The translations under genes and the position numbers were made by a program. A stretch of DNA of 32,232 bases from Deltaproteobacteria bacterium (lineage in GTDB: Bacteria; Desulfobacterota; Syntrophia; Syntrophales; UBA2210): the NCBI GenBank assembly GCA_016933965.1, contig JAFGTS010000015.1, positions 1 through 32,232 on the forward strand, read 5' to 3'. Each line of letters opens with the position of its first letter. Within the stretch, counting starts at the first letter, position 1. The notes under the pieces are model-generated. The model had not been told where the DNA came from, did not search any database, and saw only the letters and a list, made by a program, of their open reading frames with translations. Below are positions 14,718-32,119 of the stretch, in pieces.

Positions 14718-15401
14718 ATGGAATCATCGCGAGACACGCTGGTTTGGTCCGCCCGGGAAATAGGTGTCGATCTGCCGAGTACGGTCGCCGACCGTTTCGA
14801 AGCGTACCGCCGCGAGCTGCTCCTCTGGAATTCCCGCATGTCCCTCATATCAGCCCGTTCCGAGCGGGACATCGTGATCGGTCATTTCATCGACTCCCTG
14901 ACCATCGTCTCCTGTGTGAAAGACGGTCCGCAACGGCTTATCGACCTCGGGTCCGGCGCCGGCTTTCCTGCTATCCCGCTCGCGCTCGTGTTCGATGAGC
15001 TCCAGGTCACCCTGGTGGAACCATCGAGGAAAAAAGTTTCCTTCCTCAAGTCGGTGGTCCGCCTTCTCTCCCTCTCCACTGTGACGGTCATCCGTGAACG
15101 GACGGAGTCGCTCATGCAACAGGATCCTCTCCGGAACGCCTTTGATCTGGTGACGTCCCGGGCGGCTTTTCAACTGCCGGAACTGCTGCGCATGGCGGAT
15201 TATTTTCTGGGCGAGGAAGGACGGCTCATCGTCATGAAGGGAAGAACCGCCGACCGCGACCGGGCAGTCGAAGACCGATACAACTTTACTCTGTCGGAAC
15301 GCATGGACAGAGTCCTTCCCGGGACGGGACGCAAAAGGACCATCCTCGTCTACAGCCGCAACATGCCTCGGCGGAACGTCATTGAAGGCGACAAAGGGTG
15401 A
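14718..15401 (+). CDS. rsmG: 16S rRNA (guanine527-N7)-methyltransferase
   Basis: This 227-residue class I SAM methyltransferase of the RsmG (GidB) family has an N-terminal helical region with YRRELLLWNSRMSLIS. The SAM motif is LIDLGSGAGFPAIPLAL (~74-90), the acidic strand VTLVEPSRKKVSFLK follows, and the late motif is VTSRAAFQLPELL. It methylates G527 near the decoding centre; loss gives low-level streptomycin resistance in other bacteria. The ribosome-binding site is weak (GGTGACGG). It lies directly before parA and parB, the arrangement common near bacterial origins. Confidence 0.93.
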   Translation: MESSRDTLVWSAREIGVDLPSTVADRFEAYRRELLLWNSRMSLISARSERDIVIGHFIDSLTIVSCVKDGPQRLIDLGSGAGFPAIPLALVFDELQVTLVEPSRKKVSFLKSVVRLLSLSTVTVIRERTESLMQQDPLRNAFDLVTSRAAFQLPELLRMADYFLGEEGRLIVMKGRTADRDRAVEDRYNFTLSERMDRVLPGTGRKRTILVYSRNMPRRNVIEGDKG

Positions 15402-15496
15402 AACACCAATTTATTTCTTCTCAAAGAGGCGCTTCTGTGCTAGATTCGGCTCGATATGATCTGAACAAAATTCCGTGTTAGAATTGCGTCAAAAAA

Positions 15497-16267
15497 GTGT
15501 TTAAATCCATATGTATAGCCAATCAGAAGGGGGGGGTCGGCAAAACGACGACGGCTATCAACCTGGCCGCCTGTCTCGCCGCCGCAGAGCGGAAAACGCT
15601 CCTCGTAGACTGCGACCCGCAGGGGAACGCCACCAGCGGGCTCGGCATCGACCGCGAAACTGTCGGAGCGAAGGATCTCTATCACGCGTTGATCGGTGAT
15701 GTCCCCCTGAGCGAAACCATCGTGAACACCGAAATCCCCGCCCTGGATGTGGTCCCTTCCACTCAGGACCTGATCGGTGTCGAGGTGGAATTCGTTACCG
15801 TTGAGGATCGTGAGAAGCGTCTGCAAAAAACGCTGAAGCATATTGACAGCACCTACGAATTTATTATAATCGATTGTCCGCCATCGCTCGGGTTTTTGAC
15901 GGTCAACTCGTTGGTAGCGTCCGATTTTGTCATCATACCCTTACAGTGTGAATACTTTGCCCTCGAGGGACTCGGTCAGCTATTGAATACGGTCAAACTG
16001 GTTCAGGCGCGTCTGAATCCCCGGTTGACGCTGGCGGGAATCCTTCTCACCATGTTCGACACGAGAAACCGCCTCTCCCACCGTGTGGAGGAAGAGGTAA
16101 GGAAATATTTCGGGTCCAGGGTCTTTCACACGATCATTCCCCGGAACGTCCGGCTCTCGGAGAGTCCAAGCCACGGTCTGCCTATCATTCTTTATGATAT
16201 CAATTCCCGCGGCGCCGAGTCGTACCTTGAGCTGGCACGGGAAATTCTGACGAACGGAAGGATATAA
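15497..16267 (+). CDS. parA: Chromosome-partitioning ATPase ParA/Soj
   Basis: This 256-residue deviant Walker ATPase has KGGVGKTT (11-18, with the signature first Lys), LLVDCDPQGNATSG and IIDCPPSLGFLT. It binds DNA nonspecifically as an ATP dimer and is cycled by ParB at parS to move origins; Soj also regulates DnaA in Bacillus. GTG at 15497 is the only start possible downstream of the in-frame stop at 15479 that keeps the conserved MFKSICIANQKGG start. No clear Shine-Dalgarno is visible. The Walker A codons contain a run of eight G bases (15529-15536). The parB ATG follows the stop codon without a gap. Confidence 0.95.
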   Translation: MFKSICIANQKGGVGKTTTAINLAACLAAAERKTLLVDCDPQGNATSGLGIDRETVGAKDLYHALIGDVPLSETIVNTEIPALDVVPSTQDLIGVEVEFVTVEDREKRLQKTLKHIDSTYEFIIIDCPPSLGFLTVNSLVASDFVIIPLQCEYFALEGLGQLLNTVKLVQARLNPRLTLAGILLTMFDTRNRLSHRVEEEVRKYFGSRVFHTIIPRNVRLSESPSHGLPIILYDINSRGAESYLELAREILTNGRI

Positions 16268-17122
16268 ATGACCAAGCGGAACGCCTTAGGAAAAGGTCTC
16301 GGCGCCATTTTCACGGATCTCGTGGACGACGGGCAGGACAAACCGTCACTTATTACGTGCGGGATTGAAGAGCTGCGTCCCAACCGGTTTCAGCCCCGGA
16401 AAGATTTCGAGGGAAGGGAAACAGAGGATCTGGTCCGATCGATCCGGCAGAATGGCATTATCCAGCCCATCGTCGTGAGAAAATCTCAGCCCGGATATGA
16501 GATCATCGCTGGAGAGCGGCGCTGGAGAGCGGCACAGGCTGCGGGGTTGAAGGATGTCCCCGTCCTCGTTCGTACCGCCGATGACGAGGAAGTGGCGGAA
16601 CTGTCCCTCATAGAAAACCTGCAGCGGGAAGAACTGAACGCGATAGAAGAGGCCGAGGCCTACCAGACACTGATGGACACCTTTCACCTGACACAGGATC
16701 AGATATCTTCGAAGGTCGGCAAGGATCGTTCAACCATCACCAATTCCCTGAGGTTGCTGAAACTCTCCGCCGATGCCAGAACGGCCCTTTCGGACAGGCG
16801 GATATCGGCCGGACACGCACGGGCCCTCCTTGCCATATCGTCGAAGGATGGGCAGCAACGGGCACTGAAGGACATCATCGGGAAAAAGCTGAGCGTTCGG
16901 GAAGCGGAACGTCTCGCAAAGCGGTTCAACAGTGCGGGGGGAAAGAAGAAAACACGCGCCGACGGTTCGGTGGCGTATCTAGAAGACATGCTGTCCAAAA
17001 AGCTGATGACCAGGGTCACCATTCGCCGGACACGCAAAGGAGGTACGATAGAGATCACGTTCTCATCACCAGAGGACCTGAACCGTCTGTCCCAGTTACT
17101 TGCCGGCACGCATGAACGGTAA
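16268..17122 (+). CDS. parB: Chromosome-partitioning protein ParB (CTPase clamp)
   Basis: This 284-residue protein begins with the basic ALGKGLGAIF tail, which in ParB stimulates ParA ATPase. The N-terminal CTP-binding region shows IIQPIVVRK and GERRWRAA, followed by SLIENLQREELNAIEEA. A helix-turn-helix (QISSKVGKDRSTITNSLRLL) reads parS, and a C-terminal dimerisation domain ends the chain. It binds parS, here most obviously the site at 7777-7792, and spreads as a CTP-gated sliding clamp. Its start abuts the parA stop, so the pair is one operon. dnaA begins 48 bases after its stop. Confidence 0.95.
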   Translation: MTKRNALGKGLGAIFTDLVDDGQDKPSLITCGIEELRPNRFQPRKDFEGRETEDLVRSIRQNGIIQPIVVRKSQPGYEIIAGERRWRAAQAAGLKDVPVLVRTADDEEVAELSLIENLQREELNAIEEAEAYQTLMDTFHLTQDQISSKVGKDRSTITNSLRLLKLSADARTALSDRRISAGHARALLAISSKDGQQRALKDIIGKKLSVREAERLAKRFNSAGGKKKTRADGSVAYLEDMLSKKLMTRVTIRRTRKGGTIEITFSSPEDLNRLSQLLAGTHER

Positions 17123-17136
17123 CATCTATCAACACC

Positions 17137-17157
17137 TGTTTATAACTTTGTTTATAG
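17137..17157 (-). promoter_or_regulatory. Two DnaA-box-like motifs before dnaA
   Basis: TGTTTATAA (17137-17145) and TGTTTATAG (17149-17157) are 8 of 9 and 7 of 9 to the reverse of the DnaA box TTATNCACA. They lie 12 bp apart just upstream of the dnaA start. They could serve autoregulation or form part of the origin. The motifs are short and degenerate, so this is tentative. Confidence 0.35.
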
Positions 17158-17169
17158 AGGTGGGGGGTC

Positions 17170-18510
17170 GTGGAATCATATTGGATTGAAAGTACTAAGA
17201 TCATTAAGGAAAAGATAAGCCAGCAGAATTTTGAGACCTGGATCAGGCCAATCAGGGTTTCATCGGTGGAGGAAAACAATATCTTTCTGGCGGTTCCCAA
17301 TAAATTTTTCAAAGACTGGCTCGTGGAAAACTATCTTTCCGTGATCAGCGACTCCCTGTCGCAGACGATGGGAACCATCGTGAATGTCAATTTCATTGTT
17401 GATGAAGATGATATCAAAAAAACGGATGTTTCCACGAAAACATCCAAGAAAGGAGCAAAAAAGATCGCTCCCCAGCGTACGAACCCCTCCCTGAATCACA
17501 GTTATACCTTCGAGCGTTTTGTCGTCGGGGCATCGAACCAGTTCGCCCACGCCGCAGCGTTGTCCGTCGCCGAGCAGCCGGCATCCCACTACAATCCGCT
17601 CTTCATATACGGCGGCGTCGGTCTGGGGAAAACTCATCTTATCAATGCCATCGGCCTTCATACCTGTTCCGTCTTTCCCGACCGCAATGTTCTCTATATA
17701 TCTGCGGAGCAGTTCATGAACGAGCTCATCAACTCGATACGTTATGACAAGATGCCGAATTTCAGGGAAAAATTCAGAAAAATAGACTCACTTTTGATAG
17801 ACGACATCCAGTTCATCGCCGGGAAGGAACGAACGCAGGAAGAATTTTTTCATACCTTCAACGCTCTTCACGATTCAGGAAAACAGATCGTGGTGACGAG
17901 TGACAAATTCCCGAAGGACATACCGAATCTCGAAGGACGGTTGCGGTCGCGCTTTGAATGGGGGCTTATCGCCGATATACAACCGCCCGACATAGAAACA
18001 CGCATGGCGATCATAGAAAAGAAAGCTCATGAAAATAACATACAGATACCGGGAGAAGTAACACACTATATCGCAACAGTTGCTGATTCCAACATTAGGG
18101 AACTGGAAGGGATACTGACACGTATCGCGGCATACGCATCACTGACCGGCAAGGAGATAAACATCAATGTGGTCAAGGAGGTCGTCAAAAACATACTGAA
18201 GAACATTAAGGAAAAAACGATCACTGTCGACGAGATCATGAAGACCGTGGCCGCTTCATTCAACCTGAAAATAAATGACCTGAAATCTCAGAAAAAGAAC
18301 AAAAACCTGATACTTCCCCGCCAGATAGCCATGTATCTGTCACGGAAGCTCACACGTCTTTCCTTCCCTGATATCGGCACAAAAATTGGTGGCAGAGACC
18401 ATTCAACGGTAATATACTCTGCGAATAAAGTACGCTCACTGATGGAGAAGGACCCGTCGATCAAGCGTACCGTCGAGGAAATAGAAGAAAAACTGCAAAC
18501 CGGTTCCTAA
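17170..18510 (+). CDS. dnaA: Chromosomal replication initiator DnaA
   Basis: This 446-residue AAA+ initiator has four domains. Domain I (~1-80) is the DnaB/self-interaction region (FETWIRPIRV, FFKDWLVENY). A short linker domain II is Lys/Ser rich. Domain III has Walker A GGVGLGKTH (148-156) and Walker B LLIDDIQF. Domain IV is the DNA-binding part, with RQIAMYLSRKLT and the signature GGRDHSTVIY. It binds DnaA boxes at oriC and melts the duplex. The start is GTG 17170 after GAGGTGGGGGG. Codon use here is visibly more A/T-rich than in neighbouring genes. It is followed by a 132-base spacer and dnaN. Confidence 0.97.
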   Translation: MESYWIESTKIIKEKISQQNFETWIRPIRVSSVEENNIFLAVPNKFFKDWLVENYLSVISDSLSQTMGTIVNVNFIVDEDDIKKTDVSTKTSKKGAKKIAPQRTNPSLNHSYTFERFVVGASNQFAHAAALSVAEQPASHYNPLFIYGGVGLGKTHLINAIGLHTCSVFPDRNVLYISAEQFMNELINSIRYDKMPNFREKFRKIDSLLIDDIQFIAGKERTQEEFFHTFNALHDSGKQIVVTSDKFPKDIPNLEGRLRSRFEWGLIADIQPPDIETRMAIIEKKAHENNIQIPGEVTHYIATVADSNIRELEGILTRIAAYASLTGKEININVVKEVVKNILKNIKEKTITVDEIMKTVAASFNLKINDLKSQKKNKNLILPRQIAMYLSRKLTRLSFPDIGTKIGGRDHSTVIYSANKVRSLMEKDPSIKRTVEEIEEKLQTGS

Positions 18511-18642
18511 CAGGTTCGCCAACAGGTTTTTTCGTAAAAATATTCTTGGGATCGGGAACATAGGAAATGATATACACAGATTCACAGGTCCTACTAGTAC
18601 GACTATATTTTTTTAAAAAATAATTAAGGAGAGTATTTAGAG
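18511..18642. other. oriC: A+T-rich dnaA-dnaN spacer, candidate oriC or part of it
   Basis: ATATACACA (18570-18578) is 8 of 9 to the DnaA box, and AGATTCACA (18578-18586) 7 of 9. An A/T-only stretch around 18604-18626 could act as an unwinding element. Only two imperfect boxes are visible, so the true origin may lie elsewhere nearby, for instance upstream of dnaA or at the strand switch. Confidence 0.35.
18581..18609 (+). promoter_or_regulatory. Putative dnaN promoter
   Basis: TTCACA (18581-18586), 17 bp, TATATT (18604-18609): 5 of 6 in each box. The start would be near 18616, 27 bases before the dnaN ATG. The DnaA-box-like motifs overlap or abut the -35, so DnaA could repress or tune dnaN. 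Confidence 0.55.
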
Positions 18643-22177
<3,535 letters not shown>

Positions 22178-22282
22178 CAGAAGATCGAAACGACACGGCA
22201 GACCGTCTGAACCATTCCCGTCATTGAAATTGTTTGATGGCCTCTAAAGAACGCCGTTCGTTGTATATCCGGAGGAAGAAGA

Positions 22283-24805
22283 ATGGACCAACTGTACCAG
22301 CGCAATATGCCGGTCACCATTGAAGACGAAATGAAGAGATCCTACATGGAGTACGCCATGAGCGTCATTGTGGGGCGGGCGATCCCCGATGTCCGCGACG
22401 GACTGAAGCCCGTTCATCGAAGGGCGCTCTTTGCCATGGCGGATCTGGGAAACCGCTGGAACCGGTCTTACAAGAAATCCGCCAGGATCGTCGGCGATAT
22501 TATCGGGAAATACCATCCCCACGGCGATGCGGCGGCCTATGATACGATCGTACGGATGGCACAGGATTTTTCCATGCGATACCCGCTGATCGACGGCCAG
22601 GGGAACTTCGGTTCCATAGACGGTGACCCGCCGGCGGCGATGCGGTACACCGAGATCCGCATGGCCCGCATAACCGAGGAAATGCTTGCCGATCTCGACA
22701 AGGAAACGGTTGATTTCAATCCGAACTACGACGAGTCTCTCATGGAACCGGCGGTTCTGCCTACGAAGATCCCCGAACTGCTGCTGAACGGTTCCTCGGG
22801 GATCGCCGTAGGCGTCACCACGAATATTCCGCCCCATAATATCCGGGAGATCGCCGATGGGATCATCGCCCTGATACGGGATCCGCACATGACGGTGGAA
22901 TCCCTGATGCGGTACGTGCAGGGGCCCGATTTCCCCACGGCGGGGTTCATCAACGGACGGGGAGGGATCGTGAACGCCTACCGGACGGGACGGGGGATCA
23001 TCCGCATGAGGGCCCGGGCCATCGTCGAGAGGAACGCCCGGAGCGAGCGGGAAAGCATCGTGGTGACGGAACTTCCCTACATGGTGAACAAGGCAAGCCT
23101 CATCGAAAAGATCTCTGAACTGGTGAAGGAGAAAAAGATAGACGGCATCGCCGACCTGCGGGACGAATCGGACCGCGACGGCATGCGCATCGTCATCGAT
23201 CTGAAGCGGGATGAAATGTCCGGTGTCATCCTGAACCAGTTGTACAAGCATACACCGATGGAATCGACGTTCGGGATTATCATGCTCGCCATCGAGAACG
23301 GCCAGCCGAAAATTTTCAACCTGAAGGAAATGCTCCAGAGTTTCGTGGACTTCAGAAAACAGGTCATCACGCGGCGGACCATCTTCGAGTTGCGGCGCGC
23401 TCAGGAGCGGCTTCACATTCTCGAAGGGTTGATCATAGCCCTCGACAATATTGATGAGATCATCGCCATCATAAAGCAGTCCGAAAACGGTCAGGAAGCG
23501 GCACAGCAGATGACCGCCCGGTTCGGTCTTTCAGACGCACAGACGAAAGCGATCCTCGACATGAGACTCCAGCGCTTGACGGGCCTGGAGCGGGACAAGA
23601 TCCGTGACGAGCACCGGGAAGTGACGGTCCTGGTAGCGGAGCTGGAAGGAATTCTCGCGGACCCGCAGAAGATTCTTGATATCATCGTGGGGGAACAGGA
23701 AGAACTGAAGAACCGCTACGGTGACGCGCGCAGAACGGAGATCGTGCAGGACAGCGAAGAAATAGACATCGAAGACATGATCGTCGAGGAGGATATGGTG
23801 GTCACCATATCGCATCTCGGCTACATCAAGAGGAACCCCGTCAGCCTGTACCGGAGCCAGCGCCGCGGCGGGCGGGGCAAGGTCGGCATGGGGACCAAGG
23901 AGGACGATTTCGTGGAACGGCTCTTCGTGGCCTCCACCCACAGCCACATCCTCTTCTTCACGAACACGGGCCGTGTCCACTGGCTCAAGATATACCAGAT
24001 ACCCCAGGCGGGACGGGCCGCCCGCGGCAAGGCGATCGTCAACCTGATCGGCATCAGCAGCGGCGAGAGGGTAACGGCCGTGCTGCCGGTGACGGAATTC
24101 CTGACGGACCGCTTCATCGTTATGGCCACCAAGAAGGGTATTATCAAGAAAACGGATCTGATGGCCTATTCCAATCCGCGAACGGGGGGCATCATCGCCT
24201 TGACGCTGGACGAGGGTGACGAGTTGATCGCCGTGAGGCAAACGGATGGAGATCAGGAGATATTCCTCGGGACAAGAAAGGGCAAGGCGATCCGGTTCAG
24301 GGAGACCGCGGTGCGTTCGATGGGGCGGACGGCGCGGGGAGTCACCGGGATCAGGATGGGCAAGGATGATTCCGTTATCGGTATGGAGATCATGGGGGAA
24401 ACAAGCTCGATCCTGACAGTTTCGGAAAACGGATACGGAAAGAGGACCACTCTCGGAGAGTACCGCCTCCAGGCACGGGGAGGAAAGGGGATCATCAATA
24501 TCAAGACCGTTCCCAAGATAGGTCTTGTTTCCGGAATCAAGCAGGTCCTGGGGAACGAGGATATCATCCTTATCAGTAACGCCGGGAAGATAATCCGGTT
24601 CCGCGTCGAAGAGGTTCCCCTGCTGCACAGGAGCACCCAGGGCGTGAAACTGATAGGGCTCGATGAGGGAGAAAAGTTCGTCTCCATCGCCCGGGCCGAG
24701 CGGGAAGAACGGGAGGAACGAGAGGGACGGGAAAACGGCGATATACCGTTGGAGGAACTCCTGGAAGGCGAAGAAGAAACACTGCCCGACATGCCGGAGG
24801 AATAA
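22283..24805 (+). CDS. gyrA: DNA gyrase subunit A
   Basis: This 840-residue breakage-reunion subunit has the catalytic Tyr122 in [10 protein letters not shown]. Its N-terminal numbering is collinear with E. coli. The C-terminal beta-pinwheel (from ~510) contains the GyrA box QRRGGRGK, which wraps DNA and marks gyrase rather than ParC. The quinolone region reads [11 protein letters not shown], so residue 83 is Ala where E. coli has Ser; Asp87 is kept. The last ~35 residues form an acidic tail with REE repeats, as in other proteobacterial GyrA. GGAGGAAG precedes the ATG by 4-6 bases. It lies 105 bases after gyrB. Confidence 0.96.
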
Positions 24806-24901
24806 TGGGTGAGAGTCTTTCGCGCCGTGAAAACGATCCTTTCATTGTTCATCTTCCGGTTTTGATCCGCGGCGCCGGTCGGAACGGGGAGGACCATGAC
24901 G

Positions 24902-25339
24902 ATGGAACACAGGACCCGGGAAAGGATCCCGTACAGGATATTCGAGCATACGGCGGACCTCGGCGTCGAGATCTATGGCCGGAGTCGGGAGGAGCTGTTT
25001 TCGAACGCTGCAGGGGCTATTTGTGATATCGTAACAGAGGGCTGGGACGTCGGGACCGCTCATGAGCGTATTATAGAAGCGGAGGGGACCGACGGAGAAG
25101 ACCTCCTGGTGAATTTCCTGCGGGAGGTCCTTTATCTCCTGAACGGGAAGGGATTTATCTCCCGGGAATGCAGAGTCGCGTTCACCGGTGATGAAAGGCT
25201 TTCGGCCGCACTGCGGGGGGAGCCCCTTGATATGAAAAAGCACCGGCTCACCCGGGAAATAAAGGCGGTCACCTATCATCAGGTCTCGCTGAAGCAGACC
25301 GGCGATGGGTGGTCGGCACGGGTGATATTCGATGTCTGA
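24902..25339 (+). CDS. Archease (activator of RtcB RNA ligase)
   Basis: This 145-residue protein of the archease family has the N-terminal FEHTADLGVEIYG motif with the conserved Asp, LLVNFLREVLYLLNGKGF in the middle, and a C-terminal EIKAVTYHQV strand. Archease helps RtcB form its guanylated intermediate and allows multiple turnover. GGGGAGG lies 9 bases before the ATG at 24902 and only 3 before the in-frame ATG at 24896, so I prefer the second. The stop overlaps the rtcB start by 8 bases, which implies coupling and supports the pairing of function. Confidence 0.92.
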   Translation: MEHRTRERIPYRIFEHTADLGVEIYGRSREELFSNAAGAICDIVTEGWDVGTAHERIIEAEGTDGEDLLVNFLREVLYLLNGKGFISRECRVAFTGDERLSAALRGEPLDMKKHRLTREIKAVTYHQVSLKQTGDGWSARVIFDV

Positions 25340-26774
25340 CCTGAACATGGAAAAACTGGACGAGTATCGCTGGATCATTCCGCCCGTCGGCGGGATGCGG
25401 GTACCCGGACTGATCTATTCCTCGGCGAAGATGATCGGCGGGATCGGAGCCGATGAAAGCCCCCGGCAGGTTGCAAATGTTGCACATCTCCCCGGAATAA
25501 TTAAATATTCCATGGCAATGCCCGACATGCACTGGGGCTACGGATTTCCCATCGGCGGTGTCGCCGCCTTCGATACCGATGAAGGCGTCGTCTCGCCGGG
25601 CGGTGTCGGCTATGACATCAACTGCGGTGTCCGTCTCATGACGACGAAGCTCCGGCACGAGGAGATCGCCCCCGTCATGCCGAAGCTGGTACCGGCGCTC
25701 TTTCGTGAGATCCCGACCGGTGTCGGTTCCCGGGGTGCGCTGAAGCTGTCCCTGAAGGAGGAACGCAAGGTCCTGGTCGAAGGGGCCCGCTGGGCGGTCG
25801 CCAACGGATACGGGACACCGGAGGACCTGGAAACGACGGAAGACGGCGGCACGATGGCGGGAGCCGACCCGGGGACCCTCAGTGACCGGGCCCTCGATCG
25901 GGGTCGTGACCAGGTGGGGACCCTGGGTTCGGGGAATCATTTTCTCGAGATAGAGGTGGTTGAAGAGATCTTCGATGAGGAGGCGGCCCGCGCCTTCGGT
26001 CTTGAATTGGACCAGGTCGCCGTTGTCATTCATTCCGGTTCCCGGGGATTGGGATACCAGGTATGCGATGATTTCCTCGCCCGCATGATGAAGCAGGCCG
26101 ATGGACTGGGTTTTTCACTTCCCGACCGGCAGCTGGCCTGTGCCTATATCCGGTCGTCCATCGGCCGGGAATACCTGTCGGCCATGGCCTGTGCCGCCAA
26201 CTATGCCTGGGCGAACCGCCAGATGCTCATGCACTGGACACGGCAGACCTTCGAGACGACCCTTCAAAGATCACCACGGGAGATCGGTATGCGGCTCCTC
26301 TATGATGTCTGTCACAACATAGCAAAGATGGAAACGATCCCCCTGGAAGGGAAAGAGCGTCGGTTATGCGTCCACCGGAAAGGGGCGACGAGGGCCTTTC
26401 CCCCCGGCCATCCGGCCCTCCCGGGACGGTACCGCCCCGTGGGACAGCCCGTGCTTATCCCGGGAGATATGGGTACCGGGTCCTACGTTCTGGCGGGGAC
26501 GGAAAAGGCCTTTCAGGACACCTTCGGAAGCACCTGCCACGGTGCCGGGCGGGTGATGAGCCGCAGCCGGGCGAAAAAGGAAAGCAGGAACCGGTCCATC
26601 GGGAGGGAACTGGCGGACCGGGGCATTCTGGTCATGGCGACGGGCAAGGGGACCCTTCACGAGGAAATTCCCGAAGCATACAAGGACATCGATGATGTCG
26701 TCGATGTGGTCCATCGGGCCGGGATATCGAAGAAAGTTGCCAGACTCAAGGCGGTGGGGTGTATCAAGGGATAA
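25332..26774 (+). CDS. rtcB: tRNA-splicing/RNA-repair ligase RtcB
   Basis: This 480-residue GTP-dependent ligase joins 2',3'-cyclic phosphate or 3'-phosphate ends to 5'-OH RNA ends. Metal ligands appear in PGGVGYDINCGVRL (Asp95, Cys98), GSGNHFLEIE (His203) and VIHSGSRGLG (His234). The guanylated His is His403 in STCHGAGRVMSRS. HRKGATRAFPPGHP and IPGDMGTGSYVLAG are further family blocks. The length is typical. No rtcA cyclase or rtcR regulator is adjacent; the partner is archease instead. A GGTCCC/GGGACC hairpin follows the stop directly. Confidence 0.95.
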   Translation: MSDLNMEKLDEYRWIIPPVGGMRVPGLIYSSAKMIGGIGADESPRQVANVAHLPGIIKYSMAMPDMHWGYGFPIGGVAAFDTDEGVVSPGGVGYDINCGVRLMTTKLRHEEIAPVMPKLVPALFREIPTGVGSRGALKLSLKEERKVLVEGARWAVANGYGTPEDLETTEDGGTMAGADPGTLSDRALDRGRDQVGTLGSGNHFLEIEVVEEIFDEEAARAFGLELDQVAVVIHSGSRGLGYQVCDDFLARMMKQADGLGFSLPDRQLACAYIRSSIGREYLSAMACAANYAWANRQMLMHWTRQTFETTLQRSPREIGMRLLYDVCHNIAKMETIPLEGKERRLCVHRKGATRAFPPGHPALPGRYRPVGQPVLIPGDMGTGSYVLAGTEKAFQDTFGSTCHGAGRVMSRSRAKKESRNRSIGRELADRGILVMATGKGTLHEEIPEAYKDIDDVVDVVHRAGISKKVARLKAVGCIKG

Positions 26775-26790: not shown

Positions 26791-26855
26791 CTGCGCTCGC
26801 GGGGAGCACATGTAAAGCGACGAAGAAAGCGAAAACACGACGGAGAGGGTATGTG

Positions 26856-27812
26856 ATGGACAAGCAGGAAACATTCGATGTTATCATCATCGGCGGCGGG
26901 CCTGCCGGGTTGACCGCGGGTCTTTACGCGGCGCGGGCGAACCAGAAGGTTCTGCTGCTGGAGGGCAGCGTTACGGTCAGCCAGATCACCATCACCGACA
27001 TGATCGAAAATTATCCGGGCCTGCCCGAGGTAACGGGAGTTGAACTGGTACAGAACTTCAAGAACCAGGCCCTTGCCTTCGGCCTCGACATTCAGACGGA
27101 GCATGTTTCGAAGATCGAAGGAGAGACCCGTGACGAACTTCCCGGATGGAAGGTCACCACCGACGCGGGGGTTCATCGATCCCTTTCGGTTATCATGGCC
27201 ACCGGTGCGTCATGGCGACATATCGGCGTACCCGGGGAGGAGGGGTTCATCGGAAGGGGTGTCTCCTTCTGCGCTACCTGCGACGCGCCCTTCTACCGGA
27301 ACCGGGCCGTCGCCGTTGTCGGCGGCGGGGACACGGCCGTCCAGGAGGCCCTGTTCCTGACGAAATTCGCGAGCCGTGTCACCATCATCCACCGCAGGAA
27401 CCGGCTGCGGGCGACGGGCATTCTTCAGGAACGTGCCTTCGCCAACGAGAAGATAGCCTTTGCCTGGGATTCGGTGGTGGAGGAAATCATGGGCGATGCC
27501 GCGGGCGTCACGGGCCTGAAGCTACGAAACGTGAACGATAAAAGCCTTCAGGACCTTCAGGTCGACGGCGTGTTCGTCTTCATCGGCCTTGATCCGAACA
27601 CCGCGCTGGTCAAAGACCTTGTCAAATGCGACGATCGTGGTTATATTATCACCGATTCCGACATGAAGACATCGGTGAGGGGCATTTTTGCATGCGGTGA
27701 CTGCATTCGGAAGACCTTGAGACAGGTCATAACGGCCTGCGGTGACGGCGCGACGGCGGCTTTCAATGCCGAGTTGCATGTGGATGAATTGAAGGGGCAG
27801 GCCTATGATTAG
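26856..27812 (+). CDS. trxB: Thioredoxin reductase
   Basis: This 318-residue flavoprotein disulfide reductase of the low-molecular-weight TrxR type has the FAD motif IIGGGPAGLTAG (11-22) and the redox pair CATC (Cys139, Cys142). The NADPH-binding motif is VVGGGDTAVQEA with HRRNRLRA, whose basic residues favour NADPH, and the late FAD motif is FACGDCIRKTLRQVITACGDGATAA. It reduces thioredoxin in the cytoplasm. The segment normally reading GGQ is here VSQ (42-44), a modest deviation near FAD. GGAGAGGG lies 6 bases before ATG 26856; GTG 26853 is a weaker alternative. It precedes other redox genes (rubrerythrin, Sec oxidoreductase) on the same strand. Confidence 0.9.
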   Translation: MDKQETFDVIIIGGGPAGLTAGLYAARANQKVLLLEGSVTVSQITITDMIENYPGLPEVTGVELVQNFKNQALAFGLDIQTEHVSKIEGETRDELPGWKVTTDAGVHRSLSVIMATGASWRHIGVPGEEGFIGRGVSFCATCDAPFYRNRAVAVVGGGDTAVQEALFLTKFASRVTIIHRRNRLRATGILQERAFANEKIAFAWDSVVEEIMGDAAGVTGLKLRNVNDKSLQDLQVDGVFVFIGLDPNTALVKDLVKCDDRGYIITDSDMKTSVRGIFACGDCIRKTLRQVITACGDGATAAFNAELHVDELKGQAYD

Positions 27813-29080: not shown

Positions 29081-29656
29081 ATGAAGAGCGTTAAAGGGAC
29101 ACAGACGGAAAAGAATCTTCTGGCCGCCTTTGCCGGGGAATCGCAGGCACGGAACCGCTATACCTTTTTCGCCGAGAAGGCCCGCGAGGAAGGATATGAA
29201 CAGATAGCGGCGATCTTTGAGGAGACCGCGGACAACGAGCGGGAACATGCCCGGCGGTTCTTCAGTTTTCTTCCCGGCGGCGATGTGGAGATACAGGCCG
29301 CCTATCCCGCCGGTGTCGTCGGGACCACGGCGGCGAACCTGAAAGAGGCCGCTGCGGGAGAGCATATGGAGTGGTCAAAACTATACAAAGAAGCGGCCGA
29401 TCTCGCCGAGAAAGAAGGGTTCAAGGAAGTGGCCTATCTCTTCAGGGCCGTTTCAAGCGTCGAAGTGGAGCACGAGAAACGGTACCTGAAACTGCTGAAG
29501 ACCCTGACGAGTGGAACCGTGTTCAAGAAGGGAAGGACCGTGACGTGGAAGTGTCGTAATTGCGGGTATATTTACAAGGGACCCTCCGCTCCGAAACGGT
29601 GCCCCACCTGTACCTATCCACAGGCGTATTTTGAGCTTCAGGCGAAAAACTATTAA
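29081..29656 (+). CDS. Rubrerythrin
   Basis: This 191-residue non-heme diiron protein has an N-terminal four-helix ferritin-like domain carrying the Glu and His ligands in AGESQARNRY, EETADNEREHA, AAAGEHMEW and VSSVEVEHEKRY. The C-terminal rubredoxin-like domain has CRNCGYIYKG and CPTC, binding one Fe. Rubrerythrin reduces hydrogen peroxide with electrons from rubredoxin or NADH-linked partners and is typical of anaerobes. GAAAGGAG precedes the ATG. The selenocysteine-type oxidoreductase begins 36 bases downstream, so the two are likely one oxidative-stress unit. Confidence 0.94.
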   Translation: MKSVKGTQTEKNLLAAFAGESQARNRYTFFAEKAREEGYEQIAAIFEETADNEREHARRFFSFLPGGDVEIQAAYPAGVVGTTAANLKEAAAGEHMEWSKLYKEAADLAEKEGFKEVAYLFRAVSSVEVEHEKRYLKLLKTLTSGTVFKKGRTVTWKCRNCGYIYKGPSAPKRCPTCTYPQAYFELQAKNY

Positions 29657-29692
29657 AGGGCCGTCGGCTGATCGCGGGAAGGAGAACGGTGC

Positions 29693-31030
29693 ATGAAGAG
29701 AAACCTTATCATTGTCGGTGGAGGCGCCGGCGGGCCGTCCGCGGCCGCTGAAGCCAGGCGGGTGGACCCCTCGCTGGAGATAACCATTCTGGAACGGGGA
29801 GAGTTCGTATCCTATGCTGCCTGACCGATGCCCTATTACATCGGCGATGTAATACAGGATAACCGGCGGCTGATCGCCCGGACCCCGGAAAAATTCGAGG
29901 AAACGGGTGTGCACGTGCGACTGAAGACCCGGGTCGAGGAAATTGACCTCGCGAAGGGGGCGGTGCGGCTTCATGGCGGCGAACAGGTTCCATACGATGT
30001 CCTGGTTGTTGCGACGGGTGCAACCGCCCGCGTGCTTGATATTCCCGGTATCGAGCGGGAAGGTGTTTTTATCCTGAAGCACCTTCGGGACGCCATAGAC
30101 ATAAAGCGCTACCTCGAAGAAAAGCAGTGCCGGAAGGCGTTGATCATAGGGGCGGGGTTCATATCCATGGAGATGGCCGAGGGTTTCGCGAGCCGGGGGG
30201 TGAAAACACAGATACTGTATCGGGGCGACCTTCCCGTCGGCCGTTGGGACCCCGAATTTTCGCGGGTCGTGCTGGAAGAACTTGAAGCCAGGGGTGTAAT
30301 CTTCGAAACGGGCGTTACGCCCGTGGCGGTCGAGGAAGGAAAGGAACACCGGTTACGGGTCCTGTCGAAGGACGACTCCTTTGAGGGAGATATCGTTCTC
30401 TGTGCCCTGGGAGTGCGGCCCGACACTACGCTTGCGGCCCATGCCGGTATCGAGATGGGGAAAACAGGGGCCATCGCCGTTGATAATTTCCAGCGGACGA
30501 ACCGGGAAGAAGTATATTCCGCCGGCGACTGCTGCGAGGTCTATCATCGGATCAGCGGTGAATGGGTCAATATTCCGCTGGGTGATATCGCCAATAAACA
30601 GGGGCGTATAGCGGGACGGAACATTGGTGGAAAAGAATCCTCCTTCGCGGGGATCGTCGGCGCCCAATCCTTCAAGGTCTTTGACCTCGAGCTGGGCGCG
30701 ACGGGGCTTGACGAATCCGCCGCCGCGAAAAGCGGGTTCGACCCCGTCAGCGCCCTGATCTGGAGCGCACCCGTCGCACGGTCATTGAATGTGCGCAAAC
30801 AGCGACTGGGGATAAAGCTGACGGCCGACAGAGCGTCGGGACGGCTTCTCGGTGCCCAGGCCGTCGGCCAGGCCGGTGCCGTGGGACGTATAAACACGCT
30901 TTCGGCGTGTCTCTGGGCCGGAATGACCGTCGACGAGGTCGGCTACATGGACCTTGCCTACTCGCCTCCCTTCGGCGGTGCCTGGGACCCCATCCATATA
31001 GCCGCCCAGGCCCTGCTCAAGGACATGTGA
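29693..31030 (+). CDS. Selenocysteine-containing FAD/NAD(P) oxidoreductase, CoA-disulfide reductase/NADH oxidase family
   Basis: The full gene is 445 residues if the in-frame TGA at 29822-29824 is read as selenocysteine. Upstream of the TGA lies MKRNLIIVGGGAGGPSAAAE, the N-terminal FAD motif, then ERGEFVSYAA. Downstream is PMPYYIGDVIQDN. In this family the block is SYAAC.(L/M)PYY, and its Cys (Cys42/43 in enterococcal NADH oxidase and staphylococcal CoA-disulfide reductase) is the single redox-active Cys; the TGA is codon 44, exactly there. The rest is intact: ATGATARV, the NAD(P) motif IIGAGFISMEMAEGF (151-165), AGDCCEVYH, and the dimerisation domain. A perfect 9-bp hairpin at 29834-29854 fits a bacterial SECIS. 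GAAGGAGA precedes the ATG by 7 bases. If the TGA were read as a stop, a start codon at 29828 would yield 400 residues without the FAD motif. It follows rubrerythrin and probably acts in thiol or oxygen defence; the substrate (CoA disulfide, polysulfide, O2) is undetermined. Confidence 0.9.
29834..29854 (+). promoter_or_regulatory. Bacterial SECIS-like hairpin
   Basis: TATTACATC (29834-29842), loop GGC, GATGTAATA (29846-29854): nine perfect pairs, with G in the first loop positions. The loop lies 18 bases after the UGA, within the usual distance for SelB-read bacterial SECIS elements. The 3' arm uses GTA and ATA codons, uncommon in this G+C-rich gene, which suggests selection on RNA pairing. 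Confidence 0.8.
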
Positions 31031-31082
31031 GGTCCTGTGCACCTGTGGTCAAAGGTGCGCGTTGATTGAGGCGGAGCGTGCC

Positions 31083-31367
31083 ATGAAACGCTGCCATTTC
31101 TGCGGAAGCGAACTGGACATGGAGGGCCGGGTCGGCCGGAGGGACCAGTGTCCCTTCTGCGGCCGCGATCTCCATATCTGTCTGAACTGCCGCTTTTACG
31201 ATCCCGGTGCGTACAATCAATGCCACGAACCCCAGGCGGAACGGGTGGTGGACAAGGAGCGAAGCAACTTCTGCGACTATTTCTCATTCAGGGAAGCCGG
31301 GGCCCCCGACGACCGGAAAGGGCACAAGAACGCCAGGGATACGCTGGAGAAGCTCTTCAAGAAATGA
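31083..31367 (+). CDS. Small Cys-rich zinc-ribbon protein of unknown function
   Basis: The 94-residue protein carries paired Cys motifs: CHFCG (4-8), CPFCG (24-28), CLNC (34-37) and later single Cys residues in NQCHEP and NFCDYF. It looks like one or two zinc ribbons followed by a charged tail (KNARDTLEKLFKK). The conserved-looking phrase NCRFYDPGAYNQCHEP followed by DKERSNFCDYF is familiar to me from hypothetical proteins in deltaproteobacterial genomes, but I know of no function. The start at 31083 follows GGCGGAG; a TTG at 31062 would add 7 residues. Its stop overlaps the TatD-like start (ATGA), so the two are translationally coupled. Confidence 0.75.
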   Translation: MKRCHFCGSELDMEGRVGRRDQCPFCGRDLHICLNCRFYDPGAYNQCHEPQAERVVDKERSNFCDYFSFREAGAPDDRKGHKNARDTLEKLFKK

Positions 31368-32119
31368 GCGTTCCTGAATTCATCGACGGACATGCCCACC
31401 TGGACGCGATATCCTCGCTTGATCCGATACTCGCGGAAGCACGCGTCGCCGGTGTCGAGGCCATCATCGCCGTGGGCATGAACAGGGAGTCAAATGAAAA
31501 AACCCTCGCCATCGCGGAACGGCACAAAGGATTTGTCTTTCCCGCTCTCGGATATCACCCCTGGGAGATCAGGGAGCCTGAGATTGCCGGGAACCTGGAA
31601 TTTCTCGCGTCCAATATGGATCGTGCAGTGGCGATCGGCGAGGTGGGCATCGATTACAAGATCCGGGTGAAAAAGGCCCTCCAGCGTGAGGTGTTCGGCG
31701 AGATCATCCGTTTGGCGGTCCGGCACGATAAACCCCTGATCCTCCACTGCCGGTTCTCCCATGAACGGGTGTTCGACATGATCGGTGAAGGCGGGGTCAA
31801 GAAGGCCGTCTTTCACTGGTACTCAGGATCCCTCGATCTGCTGCGGCATATCGTGGCGGCGGGGTATCATATATCGGCCACGCCGGCGCTTTGCTACAGT
31901 GAAGCTCACCGCCGTGCCATAGAGGCGGCGCCTCTTGAAAGGATACTGCTCGAGACGGACTGTCCCGTCGTCTATGGAGAACGGGAATCACGGCCCCGGG
32001 ATGTCCTGACGACGGCACGTGAGGTTGCCGGGATCAAAGGACTCCGGATCGAGGAGGTCGCCGCCGTGACGTCCCGCACCACGCGTCAATTCTACGGCGG
32101 CCTGGTGTCCGAGGTATGA
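31364..32119 (+). CDS. TatD-family metal-dependent hydrolase
   Basis: This 251-residue TIM-barrel amidohydrolase of the TatD group has FIDGHAHLDAI at the N-terminus (metal-binding HxH), ALGYHPWEI, the bridging Glu in AIGEVGIDYK, PLILHCRFSHERVFD and the late Asp in LLETDCPVVYG. Family members act as 3'-5' DNA exonucleases or D-aminoacyl-tRNA deacylase-like enzymes; the substrate here is unknown. The start at 31364 overlaps the preceding stop by ATGA. The frame is open upstream to 31148, but that part lies antiparallel in sense to the real zinc-ribbon gene's codons and is not part of the protein. Confidence 0.87.
   Translation: MSVPEFIDGHAHLDAISSLDPILAEARVAGVEAIIAVGMNRESNEKTLAIAERHKGFVFPALGYHPWEIREPEIAGNLEFLASNMDRAVAIGEVGIDYKIRVKKALQREVFGEIIRLAVRHDKPLILHCRFSHERVFDMIGEGGVKKAVFHWYSGSLDLLRHIVAAGYHISATPALCYSEAHRRAIEAAPLERILLETDCPVVYGERESRPRDVLTTAREVAGIKGLRIEEVAAVTSRTTRQFYGGLVSEV

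Follow-up and report, generated by a model that had tools for sequence, protein, structure and literature searches.

A probable selenocysteine flavoenzyme of the CoA-disulfide reductase/NADH oxidase family in Syntrophales, with an in-frame TGA and a conserved SECIS hairpin

A selenocysteine (Sec)-containing 'NADH oxidase' was reported in 2006 from Geobacter metallireducens (PMC1794560), and its family has since been listed with WP_011365774.1 in a 2022 review (PMC9312934) and in a 2026 review (PMC13188914), the latter giving UGxP as the motif of that family. The assignment of WP_011365774.1 to G. metallireducens is drawn from the 2006 table read alongside the subsequent lists (PMC1794560, PMC9312934, PMC13188914). 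The Sec form of the family is thus of a known kind, as a preliminary description of the present locus had noted. Compared by description, the Geobacter Sec FAD-dependent oxidoreductase and the protein encoded in our window (the whole stretch of 32,232 nucleotides analysed) are of one family and, to judge from the listed UGxP, have Sec at the same position. The window protein reads UPMP (UPxP) rather than UGxP, and relatives of the UG type, which share about 34-39% identity with it, sit on different branches of the tree. Among proteins of known structure, the CoA-disulfide reductases (CoADR) and CoA-persulfide reductases 6ruz, 5l1n, 4fx9 and 8a56 resemble it in whole fold, in FAD, NAD and dimerisation domains and in catalytic position; they have Cys where the window protein has Sec, and its branch is without the dimer-domain HYYP stretch ('HYYPG' in CoADR), which other Sec branches keep at least partly. 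The NADH-dependent persulfide reductase of Archaeoglobus (6pfz; PMC7969121) is 34% identical, its flavoenzyme part aligning over the full window protein, but it carries a C-terminal rhodanese domain (PMC7969121) that the 445-residue window protein lacks. A literature search with most subscription journals and supplements outside its reach found no account of the UPxP branch, of its SECIS or of its neighbourhood. To the known kind the present analysis adds this Syntrophales UPxP branch with its SECIS, Sec/Cys switches that number at least a dozen and concern mainly genomes still in possession of selA, and a conserved trxB-lgt neighbourhood.

The gene occupies positions 29693-31030 of the forward strand and, with Sec at residue 44, would encode a 445-residue FAD/NAD(P)H flavoenzyme of the CoADR/NADH oxidase family. 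Reading of the sequence confirmed the coordinates first proposed for it: the frame opened by ATG 29693 is interrupted solely by a TGA at 29822-29824 (codon 44, in the context SYAA-TGA-PMPYY) and ends in a TGA stop at 31028-31030. The full-length protein matches Pyr_redox_2 and Pyr_redox_dim, with an FAD motif before codon 44 that is conserved in the relatives, and NAD and dimerisation domains that are intact after it, again as had been described. A plain list of open reading frames holds only ATG 29828-31030 at this locus, a product of 400 residues without the FAD motif, so the truncation expected of ORF callers is real. That shorter frame, being the one that a gene caller would list, could be taken for the true gene, with a start at ATG 29828 and no N-terminal FAD motif. 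This is very improbable, since across 73 Sec relatives the changes in codons 1-43 lie mostly at third codon positions, which argues that this segment is translated, and the FAD motif that it contains is conserved in the aligned relatives. Moreover, the residue that would start the short protein, Met46, is Met in only 65 of the 118 Sec relatives, and Shine-Dalgarno-like stretches lie 5' of the upstream start, in the window as AAGGAG at 29679-29684 (forward strand). Because standard gene calling gives the 400-residue fragment without FAD motif, the gene is likely misannotated in many genomes of the phylum. Elsewhere in the protein, a vicinal Cys pair (GDCCE; window 30530-30535, codons 280-281) has a first Cys that is invariant in all 157 aligned relatives and a second that is present in 80 of 116 Sec forms and 19 of 41 Cys forms.

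Relatives were collected from genomes of the same family, order and phylum and by a scan of a sequence collection, giving 214 gene copies, or 159 distinct by protein. The collection scan favours close relatives, as its peptide patterns included ACPMPYYI; the genome searches are free of that bias. Its named records are mostly Deltaproteobacteria, including Syntrophales, Smithella and Syntrophus. At codon 44 the 159 distinct relatives, from many independent assemblies, have TGA in 118, TGC in 22, TGT in 19 and any other codon in none, a distribution that is not due to chance and that bears out the earlier expectation of only Cys or Sec in this column. In the alignment codon 44 falls on the Cys within 'SYGACGLPY' (6ruz) and 'SHAPCGIPY' (5l1n), which places the TGA at the redox Cys of the family, as claimed; an in-frame UGA where homologues have Cys is what is expected of a bacterial selenoprotein. 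The TGA is one base from TGC and TGT, and the assembly is a draft in 55 contigs, both of which would suit a sequencing error or a recent nonsense mutation in what would be a pseudogene or an ordinary Cys enzyme. We regard this as exceedingly improbable: the 118 relatives that share the TGA already refute it, the remaining frame is intact, and the hairpin described below is kept in Sec relatives and not in Cys relatives. One relative, L159, has one internal TGA on reading its frame. The flanks of the Sec residue are specific to branches, namely UPxPYYIGDVI (that of the window), UExPYYIGDVV, ULMPYYIGDVA, U(G/S/A)xPYYVG(R/K)VVD and UGxPYNxADP; among 116 aligned Sec relatives, Sec is followed by Pro in 72, Gly in 15 and Glu in 14.

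Just downstream of the TGA lies a candidate bacterial SECIS element, on which the preliminary description was silent. It is a hairpin at 29834-29854 of the forward strand, UAUUACAUC-GGC-GAUGUAAUA, with nine base pairs, a GGC loop at 29843-29845 and 18 nt from TGA to loop. These features agree with the published rules for bacterial SECIS elements, which call for a loop of 3-9 nt, an upper stem of 4-16 bp, a G in the first two loop positions and 16-37 nt between UGA and loop (PMC13188914). Folded alone, the 27-nt hairpin piece has a z-score of -3.74. The single-sequence fold of the 45 nt from the TGA onward is weak in the window (z -1.80), and for this reason synonymous resampling, drawn from each gene's own codons, and covariation were used; it is from these comparisons that the strong evidence comes. 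Of the 96 Sec relatives that have a hairpin of this type, the eight inner pairs are complete in 92, where synonymous resampling predicts 12.3; near Cys relatives form all eight in only 1 of 24 and as a group fit the synonymous expectation. The mean z-score against synonymous recoding is -1.14 for Sec and +0.22 for Cys forms (Mann-Whitney p 4e-8, nominal because the sequences are related). Changes on both sides of a pair occur in three pairs, filling 13 cells versus 2.4 in shuffles, with none of 500 shuffles as high (again nominal, given the relatedness), and slid pairings score worse than the actual one. For instance, a C-G pair becomes U-A in L098 at the price of Val to Ile in the protein, a U-A pair becomes C-G in L167 with Tyr to His, and in several relatives pair 3 is C-G in place of U-A, with Val replacing Ile. 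The constraint is also visible in codon choice: Val53 is encoded by GTA in 94 of the 95 Sec relatives that have Val there, whereas GTA makes up 453 of 3398 Val codons (13%) over whole genes. The YYVG(R/K) Sec branches have a different hairpin in the same place, and the 22 Sec sequences outside the IGDV type have a mean z-score of -1.04; in distant Cys relatives the mean is 0.02. A second Sec branch (L129, L130, L131, L132, L133 and relatives) is distant from the window protein, at 34-42% identity, and carries another conserved hairpin, GUCGGC..UUGUCGAC, 3' of its TGA; it was found in five genomes of the window's order, four of which also have a UPxP copy.

The preliminary description had proposed a search of the genome for the Sec machinery. 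In this genome (2.85 Mb, 97% complete) selA and selB are present, as is selD, itself with an in-frame TGA. A tRNA-Sec (selC) match scores above the Rfam cut-off and has the anticodon loop CUUCAAA; the gene is cut by a contig end (L001) and is therefore incomplete in the assembly. ARAGORN made no tRNA-Sec call in L001, where the gene is so cut, and we therefore relied on the Rfam match and the anticodon loop. The set selA, selB, selC and selD looked for in a selenoprotein-producing bacterium is thus represented. Three genes of the molybdopterin-oxidoreductase family, of which formate dehydrogenase is a member, each have one in-frame TGA as well. A reading of UGA as some other amino acid, Trp or Cys, through a changed code or a near-cognate tRNA would likewise yield the full-length protein. 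Such readthrough is highly improbable, given that the gene's own stop is TGA, that the alternative at codon 44 is always Cys and never Trp, and that the Sec machinery is present together with a SECIS fitting the published rules (PMC13188914). Insertion of Sec at codon 44, as originally proposed, is therefore strongly supported as a prediction by codon conservation, hairpin and machinery. Judged from sequence, the gene of this anaerobic, Syntrophales-type bacterium very probably encodes a selenoprotein of the CoADR/NADH oxidase/persulfide reductase group, in which UGA codon 44 would be recoded by SelB, tRNA-Sec and the SECIS just downstream in the coding sequence.

When Sec and Cys are mapped on a quick tree of 157 proteins, 17 changes are counted, at least 13 of which are forced by well-supported branches. 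The UPxP branch has its Cys forms scattered inside groups of Sec forms, a pattern best read as repeated Sec-to-Cys replacement, bearing in mind that gains and losses look alike in unrooted counts. In L042, L070, L081 and L088, all of them Cys genes, 7 or 8 of the nine hairpin pairs are kept, apparently as decaying SECIS remnants after such replacement, in a background where 7 pairs are also reached by certain other Cys genes. The Cys forms are not in general due to loss of the machinery, since selA is still found in 9 of the 10 genomes where only the Cys form of the clade was seen, and four further genomes have both Sec and Cys copies along with selA. The evidence for the hairpin and for repeated replacement of Sec by Cys is unusually clear in the UPxP branch. 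Sec and Cys forms of the family make up a clean natural series, and most of the genomes concerned retain selA; this makes it directly testable why Sec is kept and how far a SECIS constrains the protein that it lies in.

The label CoADR/NADH oxidase given earlier is one for the family rather than for a demonstrated activity: the protein scores 379.7 bits against the CoA-disulfide reductase model TIGR03385, below its equivalog cut-off of 578.8. An AlphaFold2 model built from the window protein and 21 relatives (pLDDT 89, pTM 0.87) has its best PDB matches among CoADR and CoA-persulfide reductases, with TM-scores of about 0.92. The active-site Tyr pair of CoADR (Tyr361 and Tyr419 of the Staphylococcus aureus enzyme, going by PDB titles) was placed indirectly, through 6ruz and 5l1n. 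So placed, Tyr423 of the dimer domain, which is taken as the second Tyr, is invariant, and the Tyr of HYYP, taken as the first, is absent in the UPxP branch. The loss of HYYP and the score under the TIGR03385 cut-off both count against the name CoA-disulfide reductase, which on such comparisons does not appear to be a firm one. If the protein works as its Cys counterparts do, NAD(P)H would reduce FAD, electrons would pass from FAD to Sec44, and the Sec44 selenolate would attack a low-molecular-weight disulfide, persulfide or peroxide. Sequence analysis shows the recoding site, the conserved and covarying hairpin, the Sec machinery, the family and the fold; the actual insertion of Sec, the redox chemistry of Sec44 and the substrate are what we infer.

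Most relatives on the branch to which the window belongs share the gene order trxB, lgt and then the gene for this flavoenzyme, whether it is of the Sec or the Cys form. In the window, trxB (thioredoxin reductase; 26853-27812, forward strand) scores 379.4 bits with TIGR01292, above the cut-off, and is followed on the same strand by lgt (prolipoprotein diacylglyceryl transferase, PF01790; 28186-29046), which most of the clade's Sec and Cys relatives also have 5' of the gene. A tie to thiol redox balance may be suggested from the trxB neighbour. With about even confidence, we favour reduction of a disulfide or persulfide as the function, because the structures closest to it belong to CoADR and CoA-persulfide reductases and because trxB is a conserved neighbour. 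A different function for the same Sec protein would be that of a water-forming NADH oxidase or a peroxide reductase in oxygen defence, perhaps acting with rubrerythrin, as NADH peroxidase and Nox have the same fold and a rubrerythrin gene (29081-29656, forward strand; NF045767, above cut-off) stands directly upstream, between lgt and the selenoprotein gene. We consider this rather unlikely, given that CoADR and CoA-persulfide reductases come nearest among structures and models alike and that the conserved neighbours are trxB and lgt; among the 74 clade Sec relatives with more than 800 bases upstream, rubrerythrin is adjacent only in the window and in L050. As this adjacency is not conserved, rubrerythrin was rejected as a functional partner. 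A further proposal can be put forward tentatively and with some doubt: the UPxP branch may be a distinct Sec flavoenzyme whose substrate is not CoA disulfide and which is a partner of the adjacent thioredoxin system, with the flanking peptide YYIGDVI dictated by the SECIS RNA, so that hairpin and peptide would drift together once Sec gives way to Cys.

Farther upstream, window positions 14718-26774 show a gene order of the chromosome-origin type (gidB, parA, parB, dnaA, dnaN, gyrB, gyrA), followed by archease and RtcB. On the other side of the selenoprotein gene, a small zinc-ribbon-like ORF (31062-31367) overlaps the start of a TatD-family nuclease ORF (31148-32119) in a different frame; the zinc-ribbon ORF is directly downstream of the selenoprotein gene in several relatives.
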